Assembly (NCBI RefSeq): GCF_033100135.1
Contig: NZ_CP136920.1
Span: forward strand, 4,955,001 to 5,019,000
Source: Rubellicoccus peritrichatus
GTDB lineage: Bacteria; Verrucomicrobiota; Verrucomicrobiia; Opitutales; Cerasicoccaceae
Direction of reading: 5' to 3'
DNA length: 64,000 nt
This document shows positions 46,901 to 61,598 of this stretch, piece after piece (the first letter of the stretch is position 1; every line of letters starts with the position of its first letter). The notes beneath the pieces are model-generated. The model did not search any database and had not been told where the DNA came from. It saw nothing but the letters and a program-made list of their open reading frames with translations. The translations under genes were made by a program, and so were the position numbers.

Positions 46901-48370
46901 TTACTGTAACTCCACTGCCAGACAGTTAGTGTATTGCGTAGGCAGTGAAGCAGGTAGCTTGACCGTAAGAATCCCAAAACTCTGACTGAATTCACAGGCT
47001 CCGGCACCAAGCAGCTTTACAGATGCAACCCTGTCACTTTCGGTCAGGCTCTTGATCACCGCAACACGGCTTTCAGGAGCTTCAAGCATGAATGCGTAGA
47101 GTGTATTGCCTTTCTGAGTGAAGCGTATGTCTGCACTGTTCCAGCTTACCTTATCCTCTTTAAAACCATCAAGAACGACCCGACTATCTCCTTCACCAAA
47201 AGTACGCCATGGGCGCGTGCCATGAATGGCTTCACCGCAAATAGCGAACCATGAAGCCATTTCGTCGAGTAGATAGGTCGCTTCCGGGTCGAGAGAGCCA
47301 TCAGGACGCTGCAGGATATTGAGCAACATGTTGCCATTCTTTGCCACAATATCGATCAACATCTCGATGACATGACCAGGTTTCTTGAAAGTTTGGCGAA
47401 CATCATAGAACCAGTTACCAATGCAGGTATCCGTCTGCCATGGATCTTCCATAACACCCGGCATCTGGCTTTTCTCGATATCGAGCACACCAACCTTGTA
47501 AATCTCCGGGCGACGATCCTTCTGGTTGTAAACGAAACGGTTCTCTCCATACTTACGGATCGAGGTATTGTAATAATAAGCAATAGCCTCCAAGCCGTTC
47601 GCATAAAGCGGATCATTTTGTTCAGCTTCATGCAAAAGCCCAAAAGGCACACCACCATCAGTGTAAAGCAAATCGGGTTCGAACAAATCGATCAGCTCCT
47701 TCATGACCGACAACCAGTAGTCGTGAAATTTTTTATCCTTTGTATACCATGGGCGACAGGTAACCTTGTCAGGGTATGTCTTGAGCTCCTCTTCGTTATC
47801 AAAATAAAAGTCACGATACTCTGGATCACCACCGTCATACTTCACACCAGCATAGGGACCGTCTTCATCAGAGGATTTGTTCGCCTTCCACCAACCAAAC
47901 GCTGCACCCAGGTGCTCAGTCAATCCGAATGGTAAGCCCTGCTTCTCCGCCGCTTGCTTCCATAAACCGCAGATATCCTTGCCTGGACCGACATCGAAAG
48001 AATTGAAGCGATTGATCTTGGAAGGATAATTGAAGAAGTTATCATGATGCATCGCCTGGCCGACAAAGTATCTTGCCCCAGCCTTCTTATACATTTCCAT
48101 TAGACCTTCCGGGTCAAACTTCTCTGCCTTCCAAAGTGCACATATATCCTTATAGCCGAATTTGGAAGGATGGCCGTAATGGCGTAGATGGTATAGATAC
48201 TGCGGACTTCCCTCCACATACATATGGCGTGCATACCAATCGCCATACATAGGAACACTTTGTGGACCCCAATGGCTCCAAATACCGAACTTCGCATCCC
48301 GGAACCAGTCCGGACAGGTATATTGCTTTAAGGAATCGAAAGTAGGCTCAAAGGAAGTCATGGTAGTCAT
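46901..48370 (-). CDS. GH29 alpha-L-fucosidase
   Basis: 489 residues. Family features: DWFRDAKFGIWSHWGPQSVP near the start, YFVGQAMHHDNF with the substrate-binding His pair, NSFDVGPGKD, and the nucleophile Asp in DLLYTDGGVP (D238). A second beta domain ends the protein. It retains configuration and removes alpha-L-fucose from glycans. No signal peptide is visible, so it acts in the cytoplasm or the gene starts farther upstream. It follows the GH86 gene by 84 bp and is probably cotranscribed; a fucose-bearing substrate is implied. Confidence 0.92.
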   Translation of the reverse strand: MTTMTSFEPTFDSLKQYTCPDWFRDAKFGIWSHWGPQSVPMYGDWYARHMYVEGSPQYLYHLRHYGHPSKFGYKDICALWKAEKFDPEGLMEMYKKAGARYFVGQAMHHDNFFNYPSKINRFNSFDVGPGKDICGLWKQAAEKQGLPFGLTEHLGAAFGWWKANKSSDEDGPYAGVKYDGGDPEYRDFYFDNEEELKTYPDKVTCRPWYTKDKKFHDYWLSVMKELIDLFEPDLLYTDGGVPFGLLHEAEQNDPLYANGLEAIAYYYNTSIRKYGENRFVYNQKDRRPEIYKVGVLDIEKSQMPGVMEDPWQTDTCIGNWFYDVRQTFKKPGHVIEMLIDIVAKNGNMLLNILQRPDGSLDPEATYLLDEMASWFAICGEAIHGTRPWRTFGEGDSRVVLDGFKEDKVSWNSADIRFTQKGNTLYAFMLEAPESRVAVIKSLTESDRVASVKLLGAGACEFSQSFGILTVKLPASLPTQYTNCLAVELQ

Positions 48371-48454: not shown

Positions 48455-50341
48455 CTACTGGATCGTTTTGAGCGGCTTATCCGCCGCACCCAATGTCTCT
48501 GTTGCCAGAACCAATGAACTTAAATGCCCACCACTATCAGGAAAGGTTATGCTGACCGTTGTCTTATCACGAATAGCATCCATTGGAACCGGTATCTCAA
48601 TTGCACCAAAGAAATCACTGCGATTGGCCTGATCGTAACCTGCCCAGTTTTCAGGAACAGGAACGTTGATTCCGTTCACCTTCACAATAGGCTGCTTTGA
48701 TCGATCATGCTTGCGACCAATACTCATACGCAGAAATGCCCGGCCTTCTCCAGTTGGCACATCATTGAACTCAAATACAATGGGCTTATTCGCAACAATC
48801 GGCTGCATATAAGTCTTTGAGTATGTCATGTGGAAATTCGCTTGAGCATCGAAAACAAAAGGTTCAGAAGCCGTATATATCAAAATGACGGTTTCCTGTG
48901 GCTGAAGGTCAATGTGATCCATTACATCATCGATTGCTTCTTCCGAGTAATCGGCAACTTCCCTATTAGGCACATCAAGGCGGCGAATGACTTTACGATC
49001 TAATTGAGGTAACACGGAATCTATTTCAAGTGAAACTCGCCGCTCTTCGTCATTAAGATTATTGAGGCAAATAAATGCGTCTTTACCATCAACAAAAGCA
49101 CGCACCATCACATCCGGATCATCCGAATAAGCGACAACGCGTTCCCCATGCACTCCCGCCCAGAGCTCGTAGAAATACATTTTCATGGTTGGCAGGAACT
49201 CCGTAGCGTAACCATTCACAATCGAATCCGGATCCGGTCGCCAAAGGTCAGCACCGTAAGGTTGATAGTTGTTATGCTCGCCATAAAACCATGGGGATTT
49301 ACTCGTGATAAAAGGAATTGAGGTGCTAATCCGATCCTGACGCTCCAAAAAAGTAAAAAGTAAGTGATTGATTGCACGGAGTCCCTGTGAGCTTTTCTCA
49401 TCACTATACCCCTCAGGGAAGCCTTTAACAATATCACCATATTCGGTAAGTGCGTGAGGTTTCACCCTCCCCCATTTGATAAAACTGTAGGTCTCAATCA
49501 GATCCAGAATTGCTTCGGCATTACTGCCGGACCGGCGATTATCCTGCCCGGTAACATTAGTACCGTCGTACAAGTGCACAGAAAAACCATCCATGTAGTC
49601 ACCTGCAACATCCATGAACATCTTCATCCGTTCGTTCCAATGCTTAAAATCCCAGAGTTCCATTGACGGCCATGCACTGGCATACCCCACAACCTGAACC
49701 GGCATATCGCGCTCCTTGAAGGCTTTACCGAATTCACGAAACCAGACAGCCATACGCTCTCGGACCTCAGCATGATCTTCGCCAAAATCACCAGTATGCA
49801 CAAAAGGCTCATTCATTGGCTCGTAAAAGGCTGGTCGTTCCACATCACTGAAGAAATATTGAAAGTATGCAGCCGCCCATTCAGCTGCCGCTTCCGGGTC
49901 TGTATCCATTGAAAAAGCGTCACGCGGATGGTCAGTGTAAACGACGCGATTGGATTGGTAGGGGTAAAGTGGATGTGTTTGCGTACGGTCAATTATTGCC
50001 CTGGACAAGGCCTTGGCTTCCGCTTCACTCGGAAACCCACCCTCTGACGCTGCCGGATAATACCAAAACGGCCCATTAAAAACACGCCCCATGCTCACAT
50101 CCAATTCGTTGACGAGTAACTCCATATCATCCGGCGTCAGCCCCATGGACATGTAATTGGAGTGAATATTAAAGTATTTCTCTCTGTCCAATGAGGATTC
50201 CCCATCCAGAAAACGCTGGGTGGACAAGTCAACGACCACTTTTGCTTCAGGTGTTTTGGCCGAAAGCAGCGAAAAGAAAGATGTACAAGCAGCCATGAGA
50301 ACCATAGAAGCTTGAGGTAACTTGAAGTGAGGGTAAGGCAT
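48455..50341 (-). CDS. GH86 beta-agarase/beta-porphyranase
   Basis: 628 residues. A hydrophobic signal (about 11-28, MVLMAACTSFFSLLSA) precedes the family start KVVVDLSTQRFLDGE. The (beta/alpha)8 barrel has the acid/base Glu in YEPMNEPFVH (E178) and the nucleophile Glu in ALTEYGD (E300), with GFSVHLYDGTNV in between. C-terminal beta-sandwich domains end with VNGINVPVPENWAGYDQANRSDFFG, shared with the GH86 protein at 61628. GH86 enzymes cut beta-1,4 links in agarose or porphyran. First gene of a two-gene unit with GH29, its promoter lying in 50342-50693. Confidence 0.9.
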   Translation of the reverse strand: MPYPHFKLPQASMVLMAACTSFFSLLSAKTPEAKVVVDLSTQRFLDGESSLDREKYFNIHSNYMSMGLTPDDMELLVNELDVSMGRVFNGPFWYYPAASEGGFPSEAEAKALSRAIIDRTQTHPLYPYQSNRVVYTDHPRDAFSMDTDPEAAAEWAAAYFQYFFSDVERPAFYEPMNEPFVHTGDFGEDHAEVRERMAVWFREFGKAFKERDMPVQVVGYASAWPSMELWDFKHWNERMKMFMDVAGDYMDGFSVHLYDGTNVTGQDNRRSGSNAEAILDLIETYSFIKWGRVKPHALTEYGDIVKGFPEGYSDEKSSQGLRAINHLLFTFLERQDRISTSIPFITSKSPWFYGEHNNYQPYGADLWRPDPDSIVNGYATEFLPTMKMYFYELWAGVHGERVVAYSDDPDVMVRAFVDGKDAFICLNNLNDEERRVSLEIDSVLPQLDRKVIRRLDVPNREVADYSEEAIDDVMDHIDLQPQETVILIYTASEPFVFDAQANFHMTYSKTYMQPIVANKPIVFEFNDVPTGEGRAFLRMSIGRKHDRSKQPIVKVNGINVPVPENWAGYDQANRSDFFGAIEIPVPMDAIRDKTTVSITFPDSGGHLSSLVLATETLGAADKPLKTIQ

Positions 50342-50693
50342 AATTTAAATCAAAGGTGATGTCTCGTTCATTTCGACACTTATAGAGGTAATGTCTGACG
50401 AAAGAAATTTTTGCAGAGAAAATTCACATACTGCCGTACTCAAGAAAACCTAGCATCAAAATAAGAACGCTGGCTTAGTTCCAAGGCAATTTGATCGATA
50501 TCCATATTCGAATAAGAACCATATATGAACACGATAAAATCCACATGCGAACAATAAATAAAAATATTCAAATATGGACATATTTATTGCACAAATTACT
50601 CATTATCATATAATTATGACATTGATTTTGCTATCCTTAAAGCCATTATAAATCATCCAAAAGGCAAAAATTCTAAAACCAATAAATTCAAAT
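50342..50693. promoter_or_regulatory. Divergent promoter region with a cluster of putative IclR operator sites
   Basis: This 352-bp A/T-rich region separates GH86 (minus) from the PEP-CTERM gene (plus). It holds four related sites: TCCATATTCGAATA (50501-50514), ACCATATATGAACA (50518-50531), TCCACATGCGAACA (50540-50553) and, reversed, TCCATATTTGAATA (50578-50565). A related TTCAAATATGAA (50687-50698) overlaps the ATG at 50694. CCATATATGAACA (50519-50531) recurs exactly at 60823-60835, beside the IclR gene. Confidence 0.6.
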
Positions 50694-51392
50694 ATGAACA
50701 CAAAAATAATAACACCCCTAATGCTCGTCCTAGCTGCAAGTTTTTCACATGCACAGACGATAACATATACAGATGCAGTCAGCGGCGCCTCTGGTAATAC
50801 CTTTGCCACTGGCGGATCACTTTCGAACACATCCTGGCTGGGCGCCCCCAATACCTCGGCTCAGAGCAATACCTTGTGGGCAGAACGCACGCCATTTGCA
50901 AACAATGGAAATGTTTTCCAAGCCAATCCGTCTGTTACTGGATCGATCCCTGAACTGACTACAGAAGTCACTGGTCTGCTTGATGGAACATATGACGTGT
51001 GGGTTTTCTTTTGGACCAATAACGAACCATGGAATATATCAGCGGGACTGACATCCGGTTCACTGATGACGTACAGTCCTCCGGGCGGAGGCGGACTGGG
51101 CAACACTACTGATGCAGTACTTGCCAGCACTCTGAGCTACGACGTAACCCCTTTACTAACCGAAGCTCCTGATAGGTTAATGTATGGTGTCAATATTGGA
51201 CAAGCCACAGTTACAGGCGGATCTGCGATTAATGTGTTCATTGGTCATAACCTTGGAAGCAACACCGCTAATCGCACATGGTATGATGGTGTCGGAGTTG
51301 CCGCGACAATTCCCGAGCCAAGCTCATTTGCCCTTATTGTCAGCAGTATCGCATTAGGCATTTTAATTATACGCCGTCAAAGGAATGGCTAA
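50694..51392 (+). CDS. PEP-CTERM sorting-domain secreted protein of the polysaccharide locus
   Basis: 232 residues. Signal peptide (MNTKIITPLMLVLAASFSHA), a mature part with beta-rich, Asn/Thr/Gly-rich sequence including TYDVWVFFWTNNEPWN, then the anchor IPEPSSFALIVSSIALGILII and basic tail RRQRNG. The mature domain resembles no enzyme I recognise; it could bind carbohydrate or matrix. Being divergent from GH86 and sharing its putative operators, it is probably switched on with the locus. Confidence 0.87.
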   Translation: MNTKIITPLMLVLAASFSHAQTITYTDAVSGASGNTFATGGSLSNTSWLGAPNTSAQSNTLWAERTPFANNGNVFQANPSVTGSIPELTTEVTGLLDGTYDVWVFFWTNNEPWNISAGLTSGSLMTYSPPGGGGLGNTTDAVLASTLSYDVTPLLTEAPDRLMYGVNIGQATVTGGSAINVFIGHNLGSNTANRTWYDGVGVAATIPEPSSFALIVSSIALGILIIRRQRNG

Positions 51393-51416
51393 AATGGCCT
51401 TTGAACGTTTAAGAGC

Positions 51417-51445
51417 CCCACTCTTACTAAAGCAGTGGGGTTTTT
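51417..51445 (+). terminator. Rho-independent terminator of the PEP-CTERM gene
   Basis: CCCCACT (51417-51423) and AGTGGGG (51434-51440) are perfect arms with a 10-nt loop, followed by T5. It lies 24 bases after the stop. Confidence 0.9.
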
Positions 51446-51452
51446 CATAACT

Positions 51453-52775
51453 TCAATCCAGCAAAGGAGCCAAGACACTGTAATTCTGCTTTGCCAATTC
51501 TTCTGAACCTTGTGCATGAAAATGTACATTGTCCTTGATCTGTATCTCCTCCAGACGTGGCATCGCAAATGAGTACAGATCATTCACCAGAATTCCATGT
51601 TTTCCCATGATTGCTTTGGCCGGACCATTGTATTCCTCCAAATCAAGGTAACGGATAGAGCCGGGTGAGCCTTTTGGAATAGGCGTCGTGGTTGCAAAAA
51701 CAAGTGTGGCGCCTGTGCGTTTTAATTCATTCACAAAAGCTTCAAGGTTTTCGACATACTCTTCCGGGGTAAACTGAATATGAGCCCCAGGCTTACCCGG
51801 TTCACTGCCCTTGTTATTCTCATCAACGTACTTGACAGCATGAAGTCCCCAATTGAACTGGATTACATCCCAGCCACGATCCCCACCTTTCTTTATATAC
51901 TGATCAACAATTTTCTTCCAGTTTGGATTAGGGTCATTGTATGTAGTGCCGCCTGAATAAACCGCTGCTGATCCTCCAAAAAGATTTCGTGTAGCTCCAT
52001 AATAACCACCTACGATCGAATCACCAACGATCAGAATCCGAGGACGGTCCGGATTCTGCCCTTCATTGAATGCTTCCAGAATGTTATTAGCAACCTGCTC
52101 AGCCATCAACTGCTCGCCAATATCAGTTGGAAGGTTGGAGTTTTGGCGAACCATCTCATTTCTTCGAGTTCTAGTGTAATCAGCCAGATCATTAATCTTA
52201 ACTCCATTTGGTCCCAGCAATTGCTTAAAGCGGCTCCCATAGGTCCAATCAACGTCTCCGGCATAACCGGACATATTTCCTCGAACTGGAGTCGTCGTAC
52301 AGCCAATTAAAAATGCATCTGACTCACCTAGCGTTTTTATTAATGATTCATAAATTCCCCAGACCTCGGCTTTGTCACCCAATGGCATTCCATCATTGGC
52401 TTCTTCAACGGGATGTCCGTCTGCATCAACATGCAGCATGAGTTCTCGCCCATAAGAAAAATGAATTACGTCCCAGCCCAGTCCCTGAATGTATTCTTCG
52501 CTAAATGCATCCCAATCCGGACTGGCTCCCTGTGGCATACTGATAAAAGTACAATTCGCCTTATCTCCAATCAAGCCTACGAGCTCCTGCTCATAGGCAA
52601 ACATCACATCATCCCCCAAGAGAAGAACATTCTTTAAAGACGGGTCTTCATTCTCTGGCCGATGCACGGTAATCTGTTGTTCTTGATCTTTATCATCTTC
52701 TTGCGCAACAGCCACACAACTCATTGAAGCTGCAAACAAACAGCTGAAGGCAAAGTATATGAATTTTGTTTTCAT
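51453..52775 (-). CDS. Secreted tandem SGNH-hydrolase protein, first domain degenerate
   Basis: 440 residues with a signal peptide (about 1-24). Two SGNH-type domains lie in tandem. Domain 2 (about 244-440) keeps the motifs: Ser in VGDSIVGG (S253), Asn in IQFNWG (N308) and Asp/His in DNVHFH (D415, H418). Domain 1 (about 46-236) aligns over its length but has LLGDDVMF in place of GDS, FSYG in place of FNWG, and no Asp/His pair, so it is probably inactive. Carbohydrate esterases of this fold remove acetyl groups from glycans. Last gene of the long operon. Confidence 0.85.
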   Translation of the reverse strand: MKTKFIYFAFSCLFAASMSCVAVAQEDDKDQEQQITVHRPENEDPSLKNVLLLGDDVMFAYEQELVGLIGDKANCTFISMPQGASPDWDAFSEEYIQGLGWDVIHFSYGRELMLHVDADGHPVEEANDGMPLGDKAEVWGIYESLIKTLGESDAFLIGCTTTPVRGNMSGYAGDVDWTYGSRFKQLLGPNGVKINDLADYTRTRRNEMVRQNSNLPTDIGEQLMAEQVANNILEAFNEGQNPDRPRILIVGDSIVGGYYGATRNLFGGSAAVYSGGTTYNDPNPNWKKIVDQYIKKGGDRGWDVIQFNWGLHAVKYVDENNKGSEPGKPGAHIQFTPEEYVENLEAFVNELKRTGATLVFATTTPIPKGSPGSIRYLDLEEYNGPAKAIMGKHGILVNDLYSFAMPRLEEIQIKDNVHFHAQGSEELAKQNYSVLAPLLD

Positions 52776-52850
52776 GTATTCTCACAAAACAATCTCAACA
52801 TTTAGCGAATCAACAATAGCCTTCAAACCAAGTGATGATACATCCTAAAA

Positions 52851-55800
52851 TCATTCCCACTGAACCGAGTATTCGCTTCCATCAGTCAAAGTAATTTGAC
52901 AGCCGTCTTTAAGGGTATCGCCAATCGATTTGACATTCGCCAAAGGATTAAGCTCATCATCACTCCATGGTTCACCCGCAGGCTTAGACAACATGAATGT
53001 AATGTAGCATGCTGCACCACTCTTTGGATCGAAGTTATCCGATGTATTGATGACAGTGCTAAACATCGACTCAGGGTGCAGGCCTTCACTATCAATAAAA
53101 TCAGCCTTCTCCCAGCCTAACACGGGAATCAATGCCAATTGATACTTACCATTAGACATCAGATAAATCTCGCGACCAGCAATATTACGAACCTCCTGCA
53201 CCATCGGTTCATCAAGCAACGGTAAGGCATAGTGGCCAAGTCTGACATTCATTGGCACTTTACTACGGTTAAGATCCACTCGAAGCATACCGTTCCTCAA
53301 AGGGATATCCGCCAGAGAAAACTGAACACCTTCATCCTCCTCCAAAGTCAAATCGCGATAGTAGACCCCATTCTCATATTTCTTAAAACGGTAGAGGTTA
53401 GATGAAAGCCAGTCATGCCCTGCTAACTTGAAGCGATAAGCCATTGAAACTTCCCCATTCGAACCATCTGCCTGCCAAGGGAAATTACTGCTATAAGCTA
53501 GACGATTGTAATTCTCGGAATCCCGACCATGGTCATGGGGATTCTTTTTCACATGGCACCAGGCACGAATTTCGGAGCCACCAATATTGGTAAAATCCGT
53601 CAGGAGAATATCTGAATCTTTGAAAAACTTTGCATTGGCGTTATGCTTGGAAAGCTCCGGCCATTTTCCTTCGGTCTCCACCGATGTCCAAAACGGATGG
53701 TCCGGTGGAGTGGCCAGGCCGAGCCAAAACTTCCCCATCCAGTAAACACTGCCACGTGTTAGGTATTCCTGAACCGCAGGTTCAAAATGCCTATAGAATC
53801 CAAGAGTAGGAACACCATCTTCCATAAAATCGGGATGTTGAAGAAACTGCAACATATTGGCCGATGCGATATGCCGTAACCACCCCCAGTCAGGGTCGGC
53901 ATCTTCAACATAAGTTGCCAGAGGGAATACGCAGCTTGCTGCAAAGCGGTAGCTAATCGAACGCCCCCACATGATCATCTCTCCATTACGGGCAAACATC
54001 AACGGGAAGTCCGGCAGCATTTCTTTAAAGTTATTGGTAAGCTGCTTGGCATACTCAGGATAAAATTCATTGCCAAAGTAGTGTGACCAGAAGATGCCGT
54101 ACATCTGGAAACCCCAAACACTGTAATAATCGTAGCATGGGTTGTCATTGTACCAACCTTCACCGCGGTAATGCCTTAATGACTTCTGAAGATACTCCTC
54201 AAGTAACTTTTCATTTACTTCGTAGCCACGACTTTTAAGAAAACTCAGGGCTATGATATTAAAAAACTTCCAATTCGAATCCACAGTAGGTCCGTCGGCA
54301 TAAGAGTTTATTTTTTCAGCCAGGGCATCACGCTGCTGTTTCGTTAGGGGGTCCCAGAGAACCTCGGGTGCAACGAAGAGACTCATAGACAAAGCACCGA
54401 ATTCCACCAGTGTCTGTCCCGGCCAATCTCCTGTCTTATTTTTAATATAAGTGGGACTTTCGGGGTCGCATATTGCATTCAAATGATAGCGATAATAATC
54501 CGCAAGTTTGATACCATTAATCGTCAAATCAGGATCATCCCTCATCAACGCTGCAGCAATAAAAAGCGTTCGGCAAAGCGTCTCCAGACGCGCAACCGCA
54601 TCAGCGGATTGACGACTTTTACCTGGTAACTTGGGAAAGAGCATAGAGTCTTCAATCGATTCCACATAACCGAATGCTCCTTCGAGTAAATAGACACCTG
54701 CATCTTTCCAATTTTGCCGAGTCATACCCGTATATGGACTCAGTTCAAAATCCGGATTTTTAATTTCAAAGACTGGTTTATTGTTCATAAGTATATAAAC
54801 TTCACTGCCTGCAGCCAGAAAAGCACCGACACCATAAACTTCCGTTTTATCTGCCCATGCCTTTCCTGGTGCAGCACCTACGGGCTGCACATAACCAAGC
54901 ATTCCATCATTCGACACATGACTGACAAGAGAATCCCAAGCCTTCATCACTACCGGTTCGTAAGTCTGACGATCGAGTAATCCATTATTAATCCCCCAAG
55001 CCAACCCGTAGGTAAAGAATGCAGTGCCACTTGTTTCTGGTGTCGGATAGATATCTGCCGCTAGAAGACTCATTGCCCAATGTCCTTGCTCAGTCTGCAA
55101 ATCAGCAATTGCCGGAGCCATTTCCATAAACAAATTTGTATAGTACGAACGCTGCTCGCCGTCTGGTAGCTCATCAATAATCAAAGGCAAACTGCCAAAG
55201 ACCCAACCATTGCCTCGTGACCAAAAAACTTTGCGGTCGTGATCACGGCGATCAATATAGTGTTCGTCACGAAAGAATAGATTTTCTTCCGGGTCATACA
55301 AATGATCAGTCGTCGCTTTATATTCCTCAAACATCCAGTCACGAAAAGATGGGTCTCCAGTGATATTTGATAGTTTAGCCCAAACCGGAGGAGCCATGAA
55401 CAGTGCGTCGCACCAAGTCCAACGTTGTGTAAATTTATAGCGATTCAGCCGCATCGGCTGCTCACTCGGATTATCACGTATCCATTCAGTTCGCCTTTGA
55501 ACCTTCTCAATCATCTTCGGATCGCCATACTTTCGGTAAAGCTCAAGGTAAAGCTGCCCAACGACCTGTTCATCCGCGTGATAGCGACTACGCCCGAGAT
55601 CCCACTCATTCTCCTCAGCAATACTTTTGAGAAACTCATAATAAGTGTCATCGTTGGCCATCTCTGCCCATTTCAACATACCGACATAAAGGGCACCATA
55701 AGTCCAGGCGACTAGGCGGTTATCTGCATCGTGGTAACGATTATAGTCATCGCGTAAATGCTCGATCTGCCAATCCGCAACTTTTTGCATGACTGCCTTT

Positions 55801-55916
55801 ACCTCCTCAGGCGTGCGGGCAGGAGGCAAAGCCAAAGCTGGCTTAATAACTGCAGCAGAAACTAGCAGCATTACACAAAACCGAGAGGCAAGAAATAGGG
55901 TACGATGTTTTTTCAC
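52851..55916 (-). CDS. Two-domain glycan hydrolase: GH105 fused to DUF2264 (GH154-type)
   Basis: 1021 residues. Signal peptide, then a GH105 domain (about 30-390) of unsaturated uronyl hydrolases: [18 protein letters not shown] with the catalytic Asp, [58 protein letters not shown] short linker is followed by a DUF2264 domain (about 398-1000; [27 protein letters not shown]-like [14 protein letters not shown]-like [27 protein letters not shown]). DUF2264 is associated with GH154 exo-glucuronidases. Both halves act on uronic residues. Middle of the uronate operon. Confidence 0.87.
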
Positions 55917-55940
55917 TTCTAAAAGGTTAATAAGGGAATG

Positions 55941-57434
55941 TTAAGATGCAGCGTTTTCTGCATTCTTTTCTTCAGGTTCTGCACTGTCGTGCATGAATTC
56001 GTATTGCTCGACCTCTTTCTGTTTGATCTGCCCTGTTTCCACTGGCAACCAAAGAGAAACTGCCGGTACATAAGTGATGACCATCAGCGCCGCCACCATC
56101 GCAAGAAAGAAAGGTATCATCTTGCTGGTGACCTTTGCGATTGTGGTTTTTCCAACCCCACAGCCAATAAAGAGGCAAGTCCCAACCGGCGGCGTGCAGA
56201 GTCCAATACAAAGATTTGCGATTAACATTATGCCAAATTGAACCGGATGCATTCCCAACTGGGTGACCACAGGTAAAAAAATCGGCGTAAAGATAAGCAC
56301 TGCAGGCGTCATATCCATAAAAGTGCCAACAAAAATCAGCAACAGATTGATTGTTAGCAAAATAAGGATCGGATTGTCAGAAAGTCCCAACAATGACTCG
56401 CTAACTGTCTGCGGAATATTGGCCATTGTCATGATCCAACTCATGCCGGAACTTGCACCGATCAACAGCATAACGACGGCAGTGGTGATACCTGTATCGC
56501 GCAGAATGGAAGGAAGTTCCTTAAAGGAAATTTCCCGGTAAATAATTACCGAGAGGAAAAATGAATAGACCACAGCAATTGCCGCAGCTTCCGTTGCTGT
56601 AAAGATGCCCTGCAGAATCCCGCCAATCACAATCACGATCAGGAGAAGGGTCGGAAATGCACGTCTTAAAGATTGAAAGCAGATCAAGCTGACGATGATG
56701 GCTCCGACAACCACTCCGCCACTCAGAGTTTTGCCTTCACCTTTGGCCAGAAATGCACCGACTAAAAAAACGATAACAAGCGCCGTACTTAGCCATGGCT
56801 TCCATTTTGGTATTTCATTAGACTGGCCTCGGTAACCATTTATTATGGAAATAATTCCCGCTACCAGCATGATAAATAATCCCGTAATAATTCCCGGAAA
56901 AACCCCGGCCATAAACATGGCTGCAATCGAAACGGAGCCTGCCGCCACCGAATAAACGATCATGATATTACTTGGTGGAATAAGCAGACCTGTCGTTGCC
57001 GCAGTCGTCGTGAGCGAGACATTGAACTCACGATTATAGCCTTTACGATTCATCTCAGGAATCATGAAACCACCGACCGATGAAACCGCAGCAGCGGCTG
57101 AGCCGGAAATGGAACCAAACAGCATACACGTCAAAGTGTTCACATAACCGAGGCCACCTGGAAACGCCCCAACCAGAACAGCGGCAAAATCGATCAATCG
57201 GCGAGCGAGTCCACCCTTCCCCATGAGGTACCCCGACAGGATGAAGAAAGGAATTGCCAGGAGCGCAAAACTGTTCACCCCATTCGCCATCTTAGACGCA
57301 AGAATTACCGAAGGATCAGAGCCCTCAGCTAAAATCGCTACAAAGCTGGCTAGTGCAATTGATACCGCAATCGGAACGCGTAGCAGTAACAACGTTACAA
57401 AAGTAATGACCAGAATAAGTGCAACAACTCCCAT
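55941..57434 (-). CDS. dctM: TRAP transporter large membrane subunit (DctM)
   Basis: About 497 residues with twelve or more hydrophobic helices. ATG at 57434 is preferred; its TGATG overlaps the DctQ stop by one base. Family marks include FFILSGYLMGKGGLARRLIDFA, GSISGSAAAAVSSVGG and FVGTFMDMTPAVLIFTPIFLPV. It carries the substrate across the membrane using a sodium gradient. In this operon the likely cargo is a uronate or small acidic sugar. The last 25 residues are an acidic soluble tail. Confidence 0.95.
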   Translation of the reverse strand: MGVVALILVITFVTLLLLRVPIAVSIALASFVAILAEGSDPSVILASKMANGVNSFALLAIPFFILSGYLMGKGGLARRLIDFAAVLVGAFPGGLGYVNTLTCMLFGSISGSAAAAVSSVGGFMIPEMNRKGYNREFNVSLTTTAATTGLLIPPSNIMIVYSVAAGSVSIAAMFMAGVFPGIITGLFIMLVAGIISIINGYRGQSNEIPKWKPWLSTALVIVFLVGAFLAKGEGKTLSGGVVVGAIIVSLICFQSLRRAFPTLLLIVIVIGGILQGIFTATEAAAIAVVYSFFLSVIIYREISFKELPSILRDTGITTAVVMLLIGASSGMSWIMTMANIPQTVSESLLGLSDNPILILLTINLLLIFVGTFMDMTPAVLIFTPIFLPVVTQLGMHPVQFGIMLIANLCIGLCTPPVGTCLFIGCGVGKTTIAKVTSKMIPFFLAMVAALMVITYVPAVSLWLPVETGQIKQKEVEQYEFMHDSAEPEEKNAENAAS

Positions 57435-57958
57435 CAATCGAGTCCTCTCTCCTCATTTGATGTTTCAACGGAAGTCTTGGTAAGCAAAGTTTCAAACAGA
57501 TCTTCAATCGTATAGAGTACAATAAAAAAACCAGCAATAGGAAGCGCAAGATACACATAGCCCATTTTCCAACCGAGTGCTGGCGTCATCTGCTCCAATC
57601 GAAGGGCATCAATAACAACACGCCCACCGCCATAAATAAAAATAGAAATCGCAAAGAATAGAACAATCAGATGAACCAGAACGGCAACTGCTTTACGAAT
57701 TTCAGGAACGAATTTCTCGGTCAGGTAATCTACGCCAAGGTGAGACTTGGAACCGAAGGCAACCGCACTCCCAATCAAGGCCACCCAGATAAGAAGAAAG
57801 CGCGCCAGCTCTTCCGACCATTTAGCCTGTTCTCCCATAACATAACGCGTAAACACGCCCCAGACAACATCACAAAGCAGCAGTGCAACTGCAACAATCA
57901 GCAACCACTCCAATGCCTTGGTGAGCACAGTCTTGAATCTGATCAGCGCGTTAACCAT
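57434..57958 (-). CDS. dctQ: TRAP transporter small membrane subunit (DctQ)
   Basis: 174 residues with four helices. The conserved pattern TRYVMGEQAKWSEELARFLLIWVALIGSAVAFG marks the DctQ fold. It pairs with DctM and is needed for assembly and transport. It sits one base after dctP and overlaps dctM, fixing the operon order P-Q-M. Confidence 0.94.
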   Translation of the reverse strand: MVNALIRFKTVLTKALEWLLIVAVALLLCDVVWGVFTRYVMGEQAKWSEELARFLLIWVALIGSAVAFGSKSHLGVDYLTEKFVPEIRKAVAVLVHLIVLFFAISIFIYGGGRVVIDALRLEQMTPALGWKMGYVYLALPIAGFFIVLYTIEDLFETLLTKTSVETSNEERGLD

Positions 57959-57959
57959 T

Positions 57960-58979
57960 TCATTGTGTATTGCGAATAATATCCAATAAACGCTTCACTT
58001 CAGGGTCTTCCACTTCATCGTACATCGGTGCGACTTTTTCGGCGAAAAGCGAAGTATCGACTTCATAAATAGTGACACCCTCGGCTTTTGCCTGTTCGAG
58101 CGCTTCCTCGGTCTTCTCTTTCCAAAGTTCCCGTTGAACATCCGATGACTCATTAGCAGCCTGAGTAATCCACGCCTGAACTTCCGAGGATAACTCATCC
58201 CACACTTTTGTACTAATCAACAACAAGTCAGGAATACGCGTGTGCGCATCCAGGGAAAAGTGTTTGCTAACTTCGTAGTGCTTGTTGGAAGTAAAACTCG
58301 GTGGATTGTTTTCCGCGCCATCCACAGTCCCCTGCGCAAGGGCAGAATAAAGCTCCCCCCAGGCAATAGGTGTTGGCGAGCCGCCCAGAGCCTTAACCAT
58401 ATCGATCGCCGTAGCACTATTCATCACTCGAATCTTCATGCCCTTCAAATCTTCAGGCGTCAGAATCGGTTTGTCCTTTGTGTAAAAGTTACGACTACCT
58501 GCATCATAATAACATAGTCCACGTAGATACTTAGCTTCCCCCTCCTGTAGGAGCTCCTGCCCTAGCTCACTATTCAGAACATCCCAATAGTGTTCTCCAT
58601 CTCTAAAGATATAAGGCAGACCAAAAACCGACATCGAAGGAATAAAATTCTCCATCGCAGCCGCCGAGGTTTTTGTCATAGCGAGTGAACCATTCTGCAA
58701 TTGCTCAATGCACTGTACCTCCGAGCCCACGACACCGCTGGGATAGATATCGATCGTCACGGAACCATCGGATAGTTCTTCCAACCGTGTTTTCATATGC
58801 TCCATCGCCATATGGACTGGATGCTTGGTATCCAGCCCATGGCCAAGCTTGAGCACCAGCTGTTGAGCATTACCAGCACCAGACTGCTGTTTTTGCGAAC
58901 GCAAAAACAAAGCAAAACCTACCGTGGCGACAAGCACACCAACCAGTAATCCTGCAATAAATCCTGAAGCCTGTTTCAT
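57960..58979 (-). CDS. dctP: TRAP transporter substrate-binding protein (DctP)
   Basis: 339 residues with an N-terminal hydrophobic helix (about 7-28), cleaved signal or anchor. It binds the substrate in the periplasm and delivers it to DctQM. The conserved ligand-binding region is KGMKIRVMNSATAIDMVKALGGSPTPIAWGELYSALAQGTVDGAENNPPSF, whose Arg normally binds a carboxylate. This argues for an organic-acid sugar. It follows kduI by 21 bp. Confidence 0.94.
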   Translation of the reverse strand: MKQASGFIAGLLVGVLVATVGFALFLRSQKQQSGAGNAQQLVLKLGHGLDTKHPVHMAMEHMKTRLEELSDGSVTIDIYPSGVVGSEVQCIEQLQNGSLAMTKTSAAAMENFIPSMSVFGLPYIFRDGEHYWDVLNSELGQELLQEGEAKYLRGLCYYDAGSRNFYTKDKPILTPEDLKGMKIRVMNSATAIDMVKALGGSPTPIAWGELYSALAQGTVDGAENNPPSFTSNKHYEVSKHFSLDAHTRIPDLLLISTKVWDELSSEVQAWITQAANESSDVQRELWKEKTEEALEQAKAEGVTIYEVDTSLFAEKVAPMYDEVEDPEVKRLLDIIRNTQ

Positions 58980-59000
58980 ATTAAAAATTGCCTTAAGACA

Positions 59001-59828
59001 TCATAGCAAATCCTTGATCGCAATGTGATCCATGTCATCAAAACGCTGATTCTCTCCACCCATTGCCCAACAGAATGAATAAGATTTTGTGCCACATCCC
59101 GAATGAATCGACCACATTGGCGAGATCACAGCCTGCTCATTGGCCATCGTGATATGACGTGTCTCATTACCTGGCCCCATGAAGTGAAAGACTCGCGACC
59201 CCTCATCGAGCCCGAAGTACATGTAAACTTCCGTACGGCGCTCATGTGTGTGGCATGGCATTGTGTTCCAAACACTACCCGGCTCCATTTGTGTAAAGCC
59301 CATAACCAGCTGGCAGCTCTTCACTCCATTCTCATGAATATACTGGTAGATGGTACGTTTATTAGAATCTTCCATGCTGCCAAGGTGTAAGGCATTCGCA
59401 TCTGCCATTCTTACCAAGGCAGTCGGATACTCGGCATGGGCAGGATAACTGACCAGATAAAAACGCGCTGGTGCTGAACCATCCAGACTACTGAATGAAA
59501 TGTCCCTACTGCCACGACCGACATACAGTCCATCAAGGTTATCAAGCGCATAAACATTGCCATCAACTGTGACTGTCCCTTTAGCACCAATATTCAGAAC
59601 ACCAACCTCACGGCGCTGACAGAAATAATCGGCGGCAAGCTCCTTTCCTGCCTCAAGCACGATCTCTCCACCCGTCGGAACCACCGCACCGACAATACTG
59701 CGCTCCACTTCGCAATAGAGGAGGTTGAGCTTCCCATCTTCAAATAAATCCATGAGGAAAGCATCACGCAGTTCGCGCGTTGACATACGTTTGTATTCAT
59801 TAGTACCGACAGTGTATCTTACATCCAT
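59001..59828 (-). CDS. kduI: 5-keto-4-deoxyuronate isomerase
   Basis: 275 residues, the usual length. It converts 5-keto-4-deoxyuronate (from unsaturated uronates) to 3-deoxy-D-glycero-2,5-hexodiulosonate. The start VRYTVGTNEYKRMSTRELRDAFL and the zinc site CHTHERRTEVYMYF (His-x-His and Glu) with a later His in MWSIHSGCGT match the cupin family. It makes the substrate of this operon a polymer whose breakdown yields unsaturated uronic acid. KduD, KdgK and KdgA are not in the window. Confidence 0.95.
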   Translation of the reverse strand: MDVRYTVGTNEYKRMSTRELRDAFLMDLFEDGKLNLLYCEVERSIVGAVVPTGGEIVLEAGKELAADYFCQRREVGVLNIGAKGTVTVDGNVYALDNLDGLYVGRGSRDISFSSLDGSAPARFYLVSYPAHAEYPTALVRMADANALHLGSMEDSNKRTIYQYIHENGVKSCQLVMGFTQMEPGSVWNTMPCHTHERRTEVYMYFGLDEGSRVFHFMGPGNETRHITMANEQAVISPMWSIHSGCGTKSYSFCWAMGGENQRFDDMDHIAIKDLL

Positions 59829-59843
59829 TAAGTAATCTTTCTA

Positions 59844-60731
59844 TTACAGAAATGTTTTTAAATAGTTCTCCCATGCAGCAGATGTTTTTATGGCACCAGC
59901 CTTCTCCCACCCATAACCGGCATAGTAAGTAATTTGGCCTTCCGAATCCGTCTCCGCAATGATAGCAACATGGCCCGTGTCTTTTCCTGTTGGTTCAATG
60001 ACAACGATTTCGCTGACTTCGTCGGGATTCACAATCACTCCAGTTCCAAGTCCGGAACCATCAAGTATCTCCCAGCAGGCAGCCCATCCCTCGGACTGAT
60101 CATAACTTACAGAAGCCTTGCCATCATGTGTCGCAAGACCGATGGCAATCGGAAGACCTGCTGCCGGTTCACCGTTTTTCCAAAAGGTGGAATTCGCTTT
60201 AAATAAACGTTGTCCTAATTCAATCGTGATTTCTTTTACTTCCTTGTAAACATCGCCGTCGATCTCGTTCTCGTAAGTCAGGGCAAAAACAGTTCGTTCA
60301 GGACTCGACTTCAGAATCTCCCATTCCGTAAAAGTTTCCAGCGGTTCACGTTGACCATCCAGCCAGATTGCGGTGCCGCCACAGCCTGCGGATGCTCCAG
60401 TATGGTAGTTATCCAGCCCTTCACCGTGATCGGTGTGATAGCTTTTTCCCTGATTGATCGATTCATCATACCACTTGTTGATGATAGGGTATGGAACTCG
60501 CTTCAACCAGCAGTCGATTCCTGCATTTTCTGCCCCATCACGCGAAGCAGGCCCATAGGCTCGAAAAGCAATCAAGTCATTTTCCCAGGCGAAATCATCC
60601 TTACGTTCGGGGACAAAACGAGCATAAGTTTCGGCATCAGCAACAGAAGTCGCGGCATCGTCCGCTACTGATTGACATCCGAAAGCCAAAGAGAACACGG
60701 TGACGGTTATAATGAATTTTATGGCGCTCAT
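59844..60731 (-). CDS. DUF4861 family secreted or lipoprotein
   Basis: About 295 residues. ATG at 60731 gives a signal (MSAIKFIITVTVFSLAFGCQS), possibly a lipobox with Cys; an in-frame start at 60791 only adds a non-signal tail. The mature part opens YARFVPERKDDFAWENDLIAFRAYGPA, typical of DUF4861, whose members accompany polysaccharide lyase and uronate genes. VVNPDE-like VIVNPDEVSEIV and HVAIIAETDSEGQ lie near the end. No known activity. First gene of the seven-gene operon. Confidence 0.82.
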   Translation of the reverse strand: MSAIKFIITVTVFSLAFGCQSVADDAATSVADAETYARFVPERKDDFAWENDLIAFRAYGPASRDGAENAGIDCWLKRVPYPIINKWYDESINQGKSYHTDHGEGLDNYHTGASAGCGGTAIWLDGQREPLETFTEWEILKSSPERTVFALTYENEIDGDVYKEVKEITIELGQRLFKANSTFWKNGEPAAGLPIAIGLATHDGKASVSYDQSEGWAACWEILDGSGLGTGVIVNPDEVSEIVVIEPTGKDTGHVAIIAETDSEGQITYYAGYGWEKAGAIKTSAAWENYLKTFL

Positions 60732-60789
60732 GATAATCGAGAGATCAAAGAGAAAACCCCAACTACACACGATAAAGTATAAGCTTGTC

Positions 60790-60845
60790 AAAGCTTAATG
60801 TTCAATTACGATTGCCTAGCATCCATATATGAACAAGCTTAAGCC
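60790..60845. promoter_or_regulatory. Divergent promoter/operator between operon and IclR gene
   Basis: TCCATATATGAACA (60822-60835) contains the 13-mer found exactly upstream of GH86. It is flanked by inverted half-sites: AAGCTTAATGTTCA (60791-60804) on the left mirrors TGAACAAGCTT (60830-60840) on the right. The region lies upstream of both the IclR gene and the uronate operon, where an autoregulating repressor would bind. Confidence 0.6.
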
Positions 60846-61598
60846 ATGAACAATTACTCCATTCCCAATCTGAAGAATGCCTGCCTTGCGATAAAGCGAC
60901 TGGCCGACGAGGAAACTGGGCTCAGTATTGCAGAGCTTGTTGAAGAACTTGAAGTTCCCCGGACATCCATGCTGCGCATTGTCAGCACTCTCGAGGAAGA
61001 AGGTTTTCTGAGGCGATCCGGGCGCAAATACCAATTGGGAACAACCATGCTGGCATTCGGTTTAACCGCCCTTAAAGAGAGCAACATCCGTGAAGTCGCT
61101 CGCCCGATGCTGAAAGACCTGTCTTTGGCCACAAGTGAAACGTCACACATTGCACAACTGGCTGGGAAGCAAATCCTCATCATGGAAGTCTGCGATAGTC
61201 CGCATCCGGTTCGAGCAGCATCGAGAGCCGGCACACTGGCGGATGTTCATTGCTCTGCAACAGGCAAGGTACTACTGGCTTACACAGTGTCCGACCTGGC
61301 GGACTTCTTCGACGACATGACGCTAACCAGACGAACTGCCAATACAATAACCACCCTGCCCGACCTTGCCAAAGAGGTTGAACAAACACGTCAGCAAGGC
61401 TTCGGAGTTGACAATGAGGAATACACGATCGGTGTGCGCTGCCTTGCCGCACCCGTTCGCAATGCAGTCAATGATGTCGTCGCTGCAATCGGTATTACTG
61501 CGAGCGTCACAACCTTCACCCAGAGACGCATTAAGGAAATCTCAGAGATAGTTACAGCCACTGCCCAGGAACTTTCCTCGCGTCTGGGCGCTTCCTAA
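60846..61598 (+). CDS. IclR-family transcriptional regulator
   Basis: 250 residues. An N-terminal winged helix-turn-helix (about 5-65; TGLSIAELVEELEVPRTSMLRIVSTLEEEGFLRR) precedes an effector-binding IclR domain (about 80-248; HCSATGKVLLAY, GVDNEEYTIGVRCLAAPVRN, AAIGITASV). Family members such as KdgR respond to uronate breakdown products. It diverges from the kduI-TRAP operon and so is its most likely local regulator. KdgR-like function is inference. Confidence 0.93.
   Translation: MNNYSIPNLKNACLAIKRLADEETGLSIAELVEELEVPRTSMLRIVSTLEEEGFLRRSGRKYQLGTTMLAFGLTALKESNIREVARPMLKDLSLATSETSHIAQLAGKQILIMEVCDSPHPVRAASRAGTLADVHCSATGKVLLAYTVSDLADFFDDMTLTRRTANTITTLPDLAKEVEQTRQQGFGVDNEEYTIGVRCLAAPVRNAVNDVVAAIGITASVTTFTQRRIKEISEIVTATAQELSSRLGAS

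Follow-up and report, generated by a model that had tools for sequence, protein, structure and literature searches.

The window analysed here, a stretch of 64,000 nt from Rubellicoccus peritrichatus (contig NZ_CP136920.1, positions 4,955,001 to 5,019,000; positions below are those of the window unless referred to the genome or a locus), contains two divergent intergenic regions in which we observed copies of a 16-bp palindrome, TGTYCA-N4-TGRACA, that is most likely the operator of the IclR-family regulator encoded beside one of them. In the right-hand gap, iclR (60846-61598, + strand; 250 aa, with the Pfam domains HTH_IclR and IclR_C) faces a row of genes on the - strand, which in order from the gap encode a DUF4861 protein (59844-60791), the 5-dehydro-4-deoxyglucuronate isomerase KduI (59001-59828, above the NCBI equivalog cut-off), the TRAP transporter components DctP (solute-binding protein, 57960-58979), DctQ (small permease, 57434-57958) and DctM (large permease, 55941-57437), a GH88 + DUF2264 fusion resembling unsaturated uronyl hydrolases (52851-55916) and, at the end of the row, a 440-aa protein with no Pfam or NCBIfam match (51453-52775). 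The left-hand gap separates a GH86-type porphyranase on the - strand (48455-50341; Porphyrn_cat_1 and BPA_C domains, for which we take GH86 to be the CAZy name), followed downstream on the same strand by a GH29 fucosidase (46901-48370), from a + strand gene for a secreted protein (50694-51392) whose PEP-CTERM-like tail, IPEPSSFALIVSSIALGILIIRRQ, was read from the sequence and which has no family match.

A previous, sequence-only reading of this DNA had pointed to a 13-mer, CCATATATGAACA, common to the 2 gaps and had proposed it as an IclR operator. We found exact copies at 50519-50531 and 60823-60835, as that reading had reported, and these were the only 2 exact matches in the whole genome (a single contig of 5,798,774 bases), both on the + strand; the reversed 13-mer gave 0 matches genome-wide. 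With 3 mismatches allowed, the window held 20 matches as compared with 18.1 expected, that is, a count at chance level, and the loose count is therefore uninformative. Examination of the flanks showed that TCCA-TATA-TGAACA conforms to TYCA-N4-TGRA and can be extended to TGTYCA-N4-TGRACA, each 13-mer copy being the right arm and centre of the 16-bp palindrome. The proposal of an IclR operator is supported by placement and, as described below, by conservation, although its unit is the palindrome and not the asymmetric 13-mer.

We scored the window with a 16-column palindromic matrix that had been fitted on the iclR upstream regions of 37 relatives, with the window excluded. Only 6 positions reached 12 or more, all within the 2 divergent regions, and the next-best position scored 10.7. 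Five of these sites lie in the left-hand gap: 50499-50514 (TATCCATATTCGAATA, score 14.1), 50516-50531 (GAACCATATATGAACA, 13.0, containing the first 13-mer), 50538-50553 (AATCCACATGCGAACA, 13.0), 50565-50580 (18.8, on the - strand; TATTCAAATATGGACA as read on the + strand) and 50685-50700 (AATTCAAATATGAACA, + strand, 19.6), with neighbour distances of 17, 22 and 27 bp inside the cluster at 50.5 kb. The last of these, the best of the window, spans the ATG of the PEP-CTERM gene at 50694 and had been overlooked in the sequence-only reading; the 3 degenerate copies which that reading had added to the 13-mer are real: 50499-50514 and 50538-50553 share the strand of the 13-mer, whereas 50565-50580 is inverted. 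The sixth site, 60820-60835 (CATCCATATATGAACA, + strand, 17.6), lies directly upstream of iclR and contains the second 13-mer; a decayed partner at 60799-60814 (TGTTCAATTACGATTG, + strand, 6.7), recognized by alignment with relatives, has its centre 21 bp from that of the strong site. The sites, their conservation, their spacing and their tie to iclR/kdu operons were all computed here.

Relatives of the window IclR (38-51% identity) turned up in families of its order (taken as Opitutales) other than its own, among Opitutales and other Verrucomicrobiota in general, and in Planctomycetota; more distant ones came from Gammaproteobacteria, Chloroflexi and others. Within the window's own family, 9 other genomes were searched and gave IclR matches of only ~20-28% identity. 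The alignment-based scan of relatives gave at least 80 loci. Of the 80 used, 29 were taken as Verrucomicrobiota or Planctomycetota (PVC group included) and 50 as others, and a Pelagicoccus locus (L094), whose match lacked the N-terminus, was left out. From the separate set of loci found with the single protein, the duplicates L004, L008 and L009 (same contigs as L056, L073 and L071) were dropped. Loci L015-L032 (at most 31% identity), together with G012:C66 (43%) and G025:C14 (33%), were excluded from the tests.

By phylogenetic footprinting, the motif proved to be kept upstream of orthologous iclR/kdu operons across phyla. The palindrome was present upstream of iclR in 36 of the 37 relatives taken as Verrucomicrobiota or Planctomycetota (examples are TGTTCACATTTGAACA, TGTTCAGATTTGAACA, TGTTCATATCTGAACA and TATTCATATATGAATA). 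When each of the 37 upstream regions was shuffled 200 times, a score equal to that of the best site came up in no more than 6 shuffles for 36 regions and in none for 32, a test that is partly circular since the matrix was fitted there. A second site scoring at least 5 within 40 bp accompanied the first in 26 of these regions, at 19 or 20 bp in 25 of the 26, and was missing from 11. When half-sites were scored at spacings of 0 to 10, N4 was the best spacing in 32 of the 37 iclR upstream regions, on which the half-site matrix had itself been fitted at N4, and, outside the fit, upstream of kduD in all 7 gammaproteobacterial loci; upstream of the more distant iclR homologues this was so in just 1 of 50.

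In Rheinheimera and Paraglaciecola the genes are arranged kduD-kduI-dctPQM-iclR, with the site upstream of kduD (scores of 19.9 and 20.1 in 2 Paraglaciecola loci and of 12.1 in 5 Rheinheimera-type loci); in these Gammaproteobacteria we found no site directly upstream of iclR, which is there the last gene of the row. Four of the Rheinheimera-type loci (L083:12922-12937, L080, L082 and L126) also have a second palindrome in the same place (12.0-13.6); in L083 it sits in a gap and precedes a 486-aa frame by 136 bp. Among the 29 loci, kduI lies within the examined stretch in 23, often alongside GH88, DUF4861 and DctPQM. The site is also kept upstream of iclR in L056, L064, L065, L067, L071 and L075, in which the examined stretch gave no kduI match, and the palindrome is therefore tied to iclR. 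In 7 Planctomycetota loci (L055, L060, L064, L074, L076, L078 and L090) the centre of the operator falls one base ahead of the iclR start, and the palindrome thus takes in the start codon.

Matrices built from some phyla were applied to others. A matrix from 7 Planctomycetota loci and 3 of the 7 gammaproteobacterial loci, chosen so as to avoid near-duplicates, placed 50565, 60820, 50685, 50516 and 50499 at ranks 1 to 5 of the ~64,000 window positions, with the next position at 10.0. A weaker matrix, from 22 Verrucomicrobiota loci, ranked 50685, 50565 and 60820 first to third in the window; in 8 of the 10 loci behind the other matrix it put the iclR or kduD upstream site at the top, and in the remaining 2 that site came second. 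Outside the fitted stretches, sites were observed immediately before kduI in Pelagicoccus (L062:8828), as a 19-bp tandem before a TonB-dependent receptor gene in L065, and between a TonB receptor gene and a DUF4861 gene in Paraglaciecola; others fall within coding sequence (L060:2869, L090:14641) or precede genes whose connection is unclear (L059:8864, L072:1433, L090:361). In the whole genomes of 6 relatives, a strict pattern was found at 9 places in 4 genomes, 6 of them at the iclR/kdu locus. Location and not number counts as evidence here, because the total of 12 strand hits hardly exceeds the 9 of the reversed control.

These observations bear on the idea that the palindrome belongs to some other regulator, for example to the product of an IclR-HTH paralogue at L140:2187-2924 (genome ~1645186-1645923), which has a site with N4 spacing over its own start codon (ATTCCATATTTGGAAT, score 14.2). 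The motif accompanies the window type of iclR across phyla, whereas this paralogue gave only short insignificant alignments with the window IclR and was missing among the homologues found for it, and 3 other IclR paralogues had no N4 pair above 8.1 bits in the 220 bp upstream. We regard another owner of the palindrome as very improbable. The L140 paralogue has, in addition, another palindrome at -27, with a 5-base spacer, and may be self-controlled.

To judge how often such sites arise by chance, we took expectations from a third-order Markov model of DNA from the genome, and counted observed sites in the DNA around pattern-search places, so that the observed genome counts are lower bounds. 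Per genome, 7.4, 2.8, 0.8 and 0.2 sites are expected at scores of at least 16.5, 17.5, 18.5 and 19.5, respectively; at least 14, 8, 4 and 2 were observed, of which 3, 3, 2 and 1 are in the window. The palindrome pattern with 2 mismatches was too loose to serve as a genome scan (704 sites as compared with 418 in the control). The 2 sites at 19.5 or above among the scored positions are 50685 and genome position 1868143; the latter (score 19.7) is the strongest outside the window and lies 340 bp upstream of another GH86 gene, which carries CBM domains. The top scores are thus placed non-randomly in the genome, at this locus and upstream of a second GH86 gene.

Possibly, only the site at iclR/kduI is an operator; the resemblance of the AT-rich promoter DNA at 50.5 kb to it would then be coincidental, with the start-codon site favoured by ATGAA starts. 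Such a start does provide half of the 50685 site, sites of at least 16.5 are modestly above expectation (at least 11 outside and 3 inside the window as compared with 7.4), and 3 of the 5 cluster sites score just 13-14, a level expected ~50-130 times per genome. Yet sites of at least 12.5, which are expected 1.4 times per 64 kb and 0.008 times per 360 bp, occur 5 times in this gap of ~350 bp, and the exact 13-mer is common to just those 2 regions of the genome. We therefore consider a chance cluster decidedly unlikely, and return to the view that both gaps contain IclR operators.

Besides the low scores just described, several observations weigh against this view. The iclR upstream region of L013 is without a site, its best score being reached by 174 of 200 shuffles; the Verrucomicrobiota matrix ranks 51844, inside the gene for the 440-aa protein, fourth in the window; and in 3 of the 5 Rheinheimera-type loci the kduD site (12.1) is outscored by another place (13.6). 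The site at 1868143 is also 360 bp from a divergent mutS. The genome has 9 GH86-like genes; strong sites lie upstream of 2, and the other 7 have no site of at least 12.5 in the 500 bp upstream. A search for GH86 in the genomes of 20 iclR-bearing relatives gave no hit in any of them, which does not prove absence, and because of this result the sites at the GH86 and PEP-CTERM genes cannot be footprinted. Elsewhere in the genome, a scan of 7 out of 13 loci gave no site scoring at least 12 at the best kduD-like genes or at eda.

The sequence-only reading had united GH86-GH29, the PEP-CTERM gene, the uronate operon and iclR in one regulon. The iclR/kdu part of it is conserved; GH86 and the PEP-CTERM gene would enter it through their sites in this one genome, and GH29 as the gene downstream of GH86, so that GH29 would belong to the regulon only if it is co-transcribed with GH86. 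To the right, the locus continues with sulfatases, an aldehyde dehydrogenase, an enolase-superfamily/GH43-like fusion and 2 more GH86 proteins, a gene set that, judged by its enzyme families, would be an agar/porphyran kit. Near the anhydrogalactose-type genes right of the window (aldehyde dehydrogenase, cycloisomerase-like and 2 GH86 genes; stretch L052) there is no site of at least 9.5, the sole such site in those 20 kb (12.6) being within a GH43-like gene, and the whole agar locus is therefore not in the regulon as judged by this motif. Since these genes and the scanned kduD-like and eda loci are without a matching operator, any real regulon here is a patchwork rather than the whole pathway.

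Other high-scoring places in the genome lie near a sulfatase gene (3833118), a GH42 gene (3563419), the gene of an AraC-type regulator (2988278, score 19.0), a second PEP-CTERM-like gene and some further genes; these are leads only, because sites of at least 16.5 are expected 7.4 times by chance. The second PEP-CTERM-like gene (L158:2881-3606, genome 5046880-5047605) has its palindrome over the start codon (5046871, score 18.0), which is partly expected by chance, given ATGAA starts. Elsewhere, the best kduD-like gene of the genome lies ~7 kb from another IclR paralogue (genome 1557707-1558456 and 1550345-1551070), so that the genome may contain a further uronate locus under a regulator of its own; the stretches scanned there contained no good copy of the palindrome.

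Three further features of the genes deserve mention. The real start of the DUF4861 gene is likely the ATG at 60731, from which the protein, translated by eye, reads MSAIKFIITVTVFSLAFGC and appears lipoprotein-like. The GH88-DUF2264 fusion at 52851-55916 is one protein of 1021 aa, the 2 parts of which sit apart in L053, and a single Pelagicoccus frame (L062:4553-7918) combines DUF4861, GH88 and a BNR domain. A 721-aa frame to the right of the window (L052:4493-6658, genome 5023493-5025658), adjoining the aldehyde dehydrogenase gene, fuses an MR_MLE enolase-superfamily enzyme to a GH43-like domain, and may join an anhydrogalactonate cycloisomerase to a sugar-freeing hydrolase.

The window IclR matches both PF09339 and PF01614 above cut-off, as expected of the IclR family. 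Its closest solved full-length relative by sequence is an IclR-family protein, PDB 1mkm, which we take to be from Thermotoga maritima; the effector domain of E. coli KdgR (1ysp) is also among the nearest solved structures. The gammaproteobacterial KdgR, the repressor of pectin and uronate genes, is of the same family and has similar pathway genes (kduI). The window IclR nevertheless scores 119.8 bits against the cut-off of 275 for the NCBIfam KdgR equivalog. Together, the site and the synteny with kduI suggest that the window IclR may control unsaturated-uronate genes.

In the survey by Suvorova and Gelfand (2021; PMC8222616), group 1 operators of the IclR family are given as GKTYCRYW3-4RYGRAMC, with the main subgroups TGT-11-ACA, GTT-11-AAC, WTT-11-AAW and NGT-12-ACN, and group 2 operators as TGRAACAN1-2TGTTYCA. 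The half-sites of the window match those of group 1 in the same order (TYCR ... YGRA), and there are similar tandem copies about 2 helical turns apart and similar positions near or on the start codon. Tandems of 18-22 bp, which the survey gives for many groups, agree with the 19 or 20 bp between the paired sites of relatives and the 21 bp to the weak partner in the window. In contrast, TGT and ACA are 10 bases apart in the palindrome described here, one base fewer than in the shortest of the 4 main subgroups, which have 11 or 12; the palindrome thus does not fit any of them. The published KdgR box, RWWGAAACGNCGTTTCAKKA (Table 1 of the survey), has its half-sites reversed relative to the window palindrome, and, for comparison with 1mkm, the survey reports only group 2 motifs in Thermotogales. 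Among the entries of its Table 2 there are no Verrucomicrobiota or Planctomycetota; a TGT-10-ACA group may already be listed in its supplementary tables or in RegPrecise. Full-text searches of the literature collection available found no paper on this motif, on a verrucomicrobial IclR with kduI or with polysaccharide utilization and a binding site, or on a porphyranase with IclR.

We also examined the gaps for promoter-like hexamer pairs. Near iclR there are 3 pairs as compared with 0.4 expected, and their hexamers overlap or adjoin both sites. On the + strand, TTGTCA-16-TACGAT at 60785-60812 would start the iclR transcript at ~60819, placing the site 60820-60835 on the transcript start; on the - strand, TTGAAC-18-TATACT (60805-60776) has its -35 hexamer on the weak partner site. 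This layout is suggestive of autorepression coupled with repression of the divergent operon. The left-hand gap shows no such excess (1 pair as compared with 2.2 expected), a further point against its sites being operators of the same kind.

The palindromes are very probably operators of the IclR encoded at 60846-61598, acting as a KdgR-like repressor of unsaturated-uronate catabolism that is released by a uronate breakdown product. From the site and genome comparisons we infer binding, repression, an inducer and a GH86 response along the following lines. An IclR dimer would bind TGTYCA-N4-TGRACA, and 2 dimers would assemble into a tetramer on sites separated by ~2 helical turns, in the manner known for the family. 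Without substrate, IclR bound at 60799-60835 would repress both iclR and the divergent DUF4861-kduI-dctPQM-GH88 row, and from the 5 sites at 50499-50700 it would repress GH86(-GH29) and the PEP-CTERM gene. Of the uronate breakdown products that might release it, 2-keto-3-deoxygluconate (KDG) is the most likely.

The same operators could also serve an IclR that activates, or both activates and represses, with uronate products switching on GH86 through the bound activator. Activators and dual regulators do occur in the family (PMC8222616), and the 4 sites at 50499-50580, whose centres lie 121-232 bp from the 2 facing start codons, are also suited to activation. However, the iclR sites overlap or adjoin promoter-like hexamers in the window, or the start codon in Planctomycetota, and the IclR-family KdgR of Caldicellulosiruptor is described in PMC8579813 as repressing the route of unsaturated uronates through KDG. 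Activation thus appears rather unlikely, and we favour repression by the window IclR.

Verrucomicrobiota and Planctomycetota include many degraders of algal sugars. A broader proposal, which we advance tentatively and think somewhat more apt to fail than to hold, is that a uronate-sensing, KdgR-like IclR, with a TGT-10-ACA operator outside the published main classes and conserved from Planctomycetota to Paraglaciecola, has in this one genome captured genes for red-algal galactans, namely the GH86 porphyranases in 2 places and the PEP-CTERM surface protein. If this is true, uronate breakdown would switch on the attack on porphyran and agar. A keto-deoxy-sugar acid would be a possible common signal, because the breakdown of anhydrogalactose also passes via such an acid, 2-keto-3-deoxygalactonate (PMC9706016). 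With an operator defined across phyla, the regulon would become readable from the genomes of Verrucomicrobiota and Planctomycetota, and the spacing, shorter by one base, would represent a testable change in the seating of the IclR dimer on DNA. Finally, a link between a uronate regulator and porphyranases predicts that one seaweed sugar may prime the attack on another.

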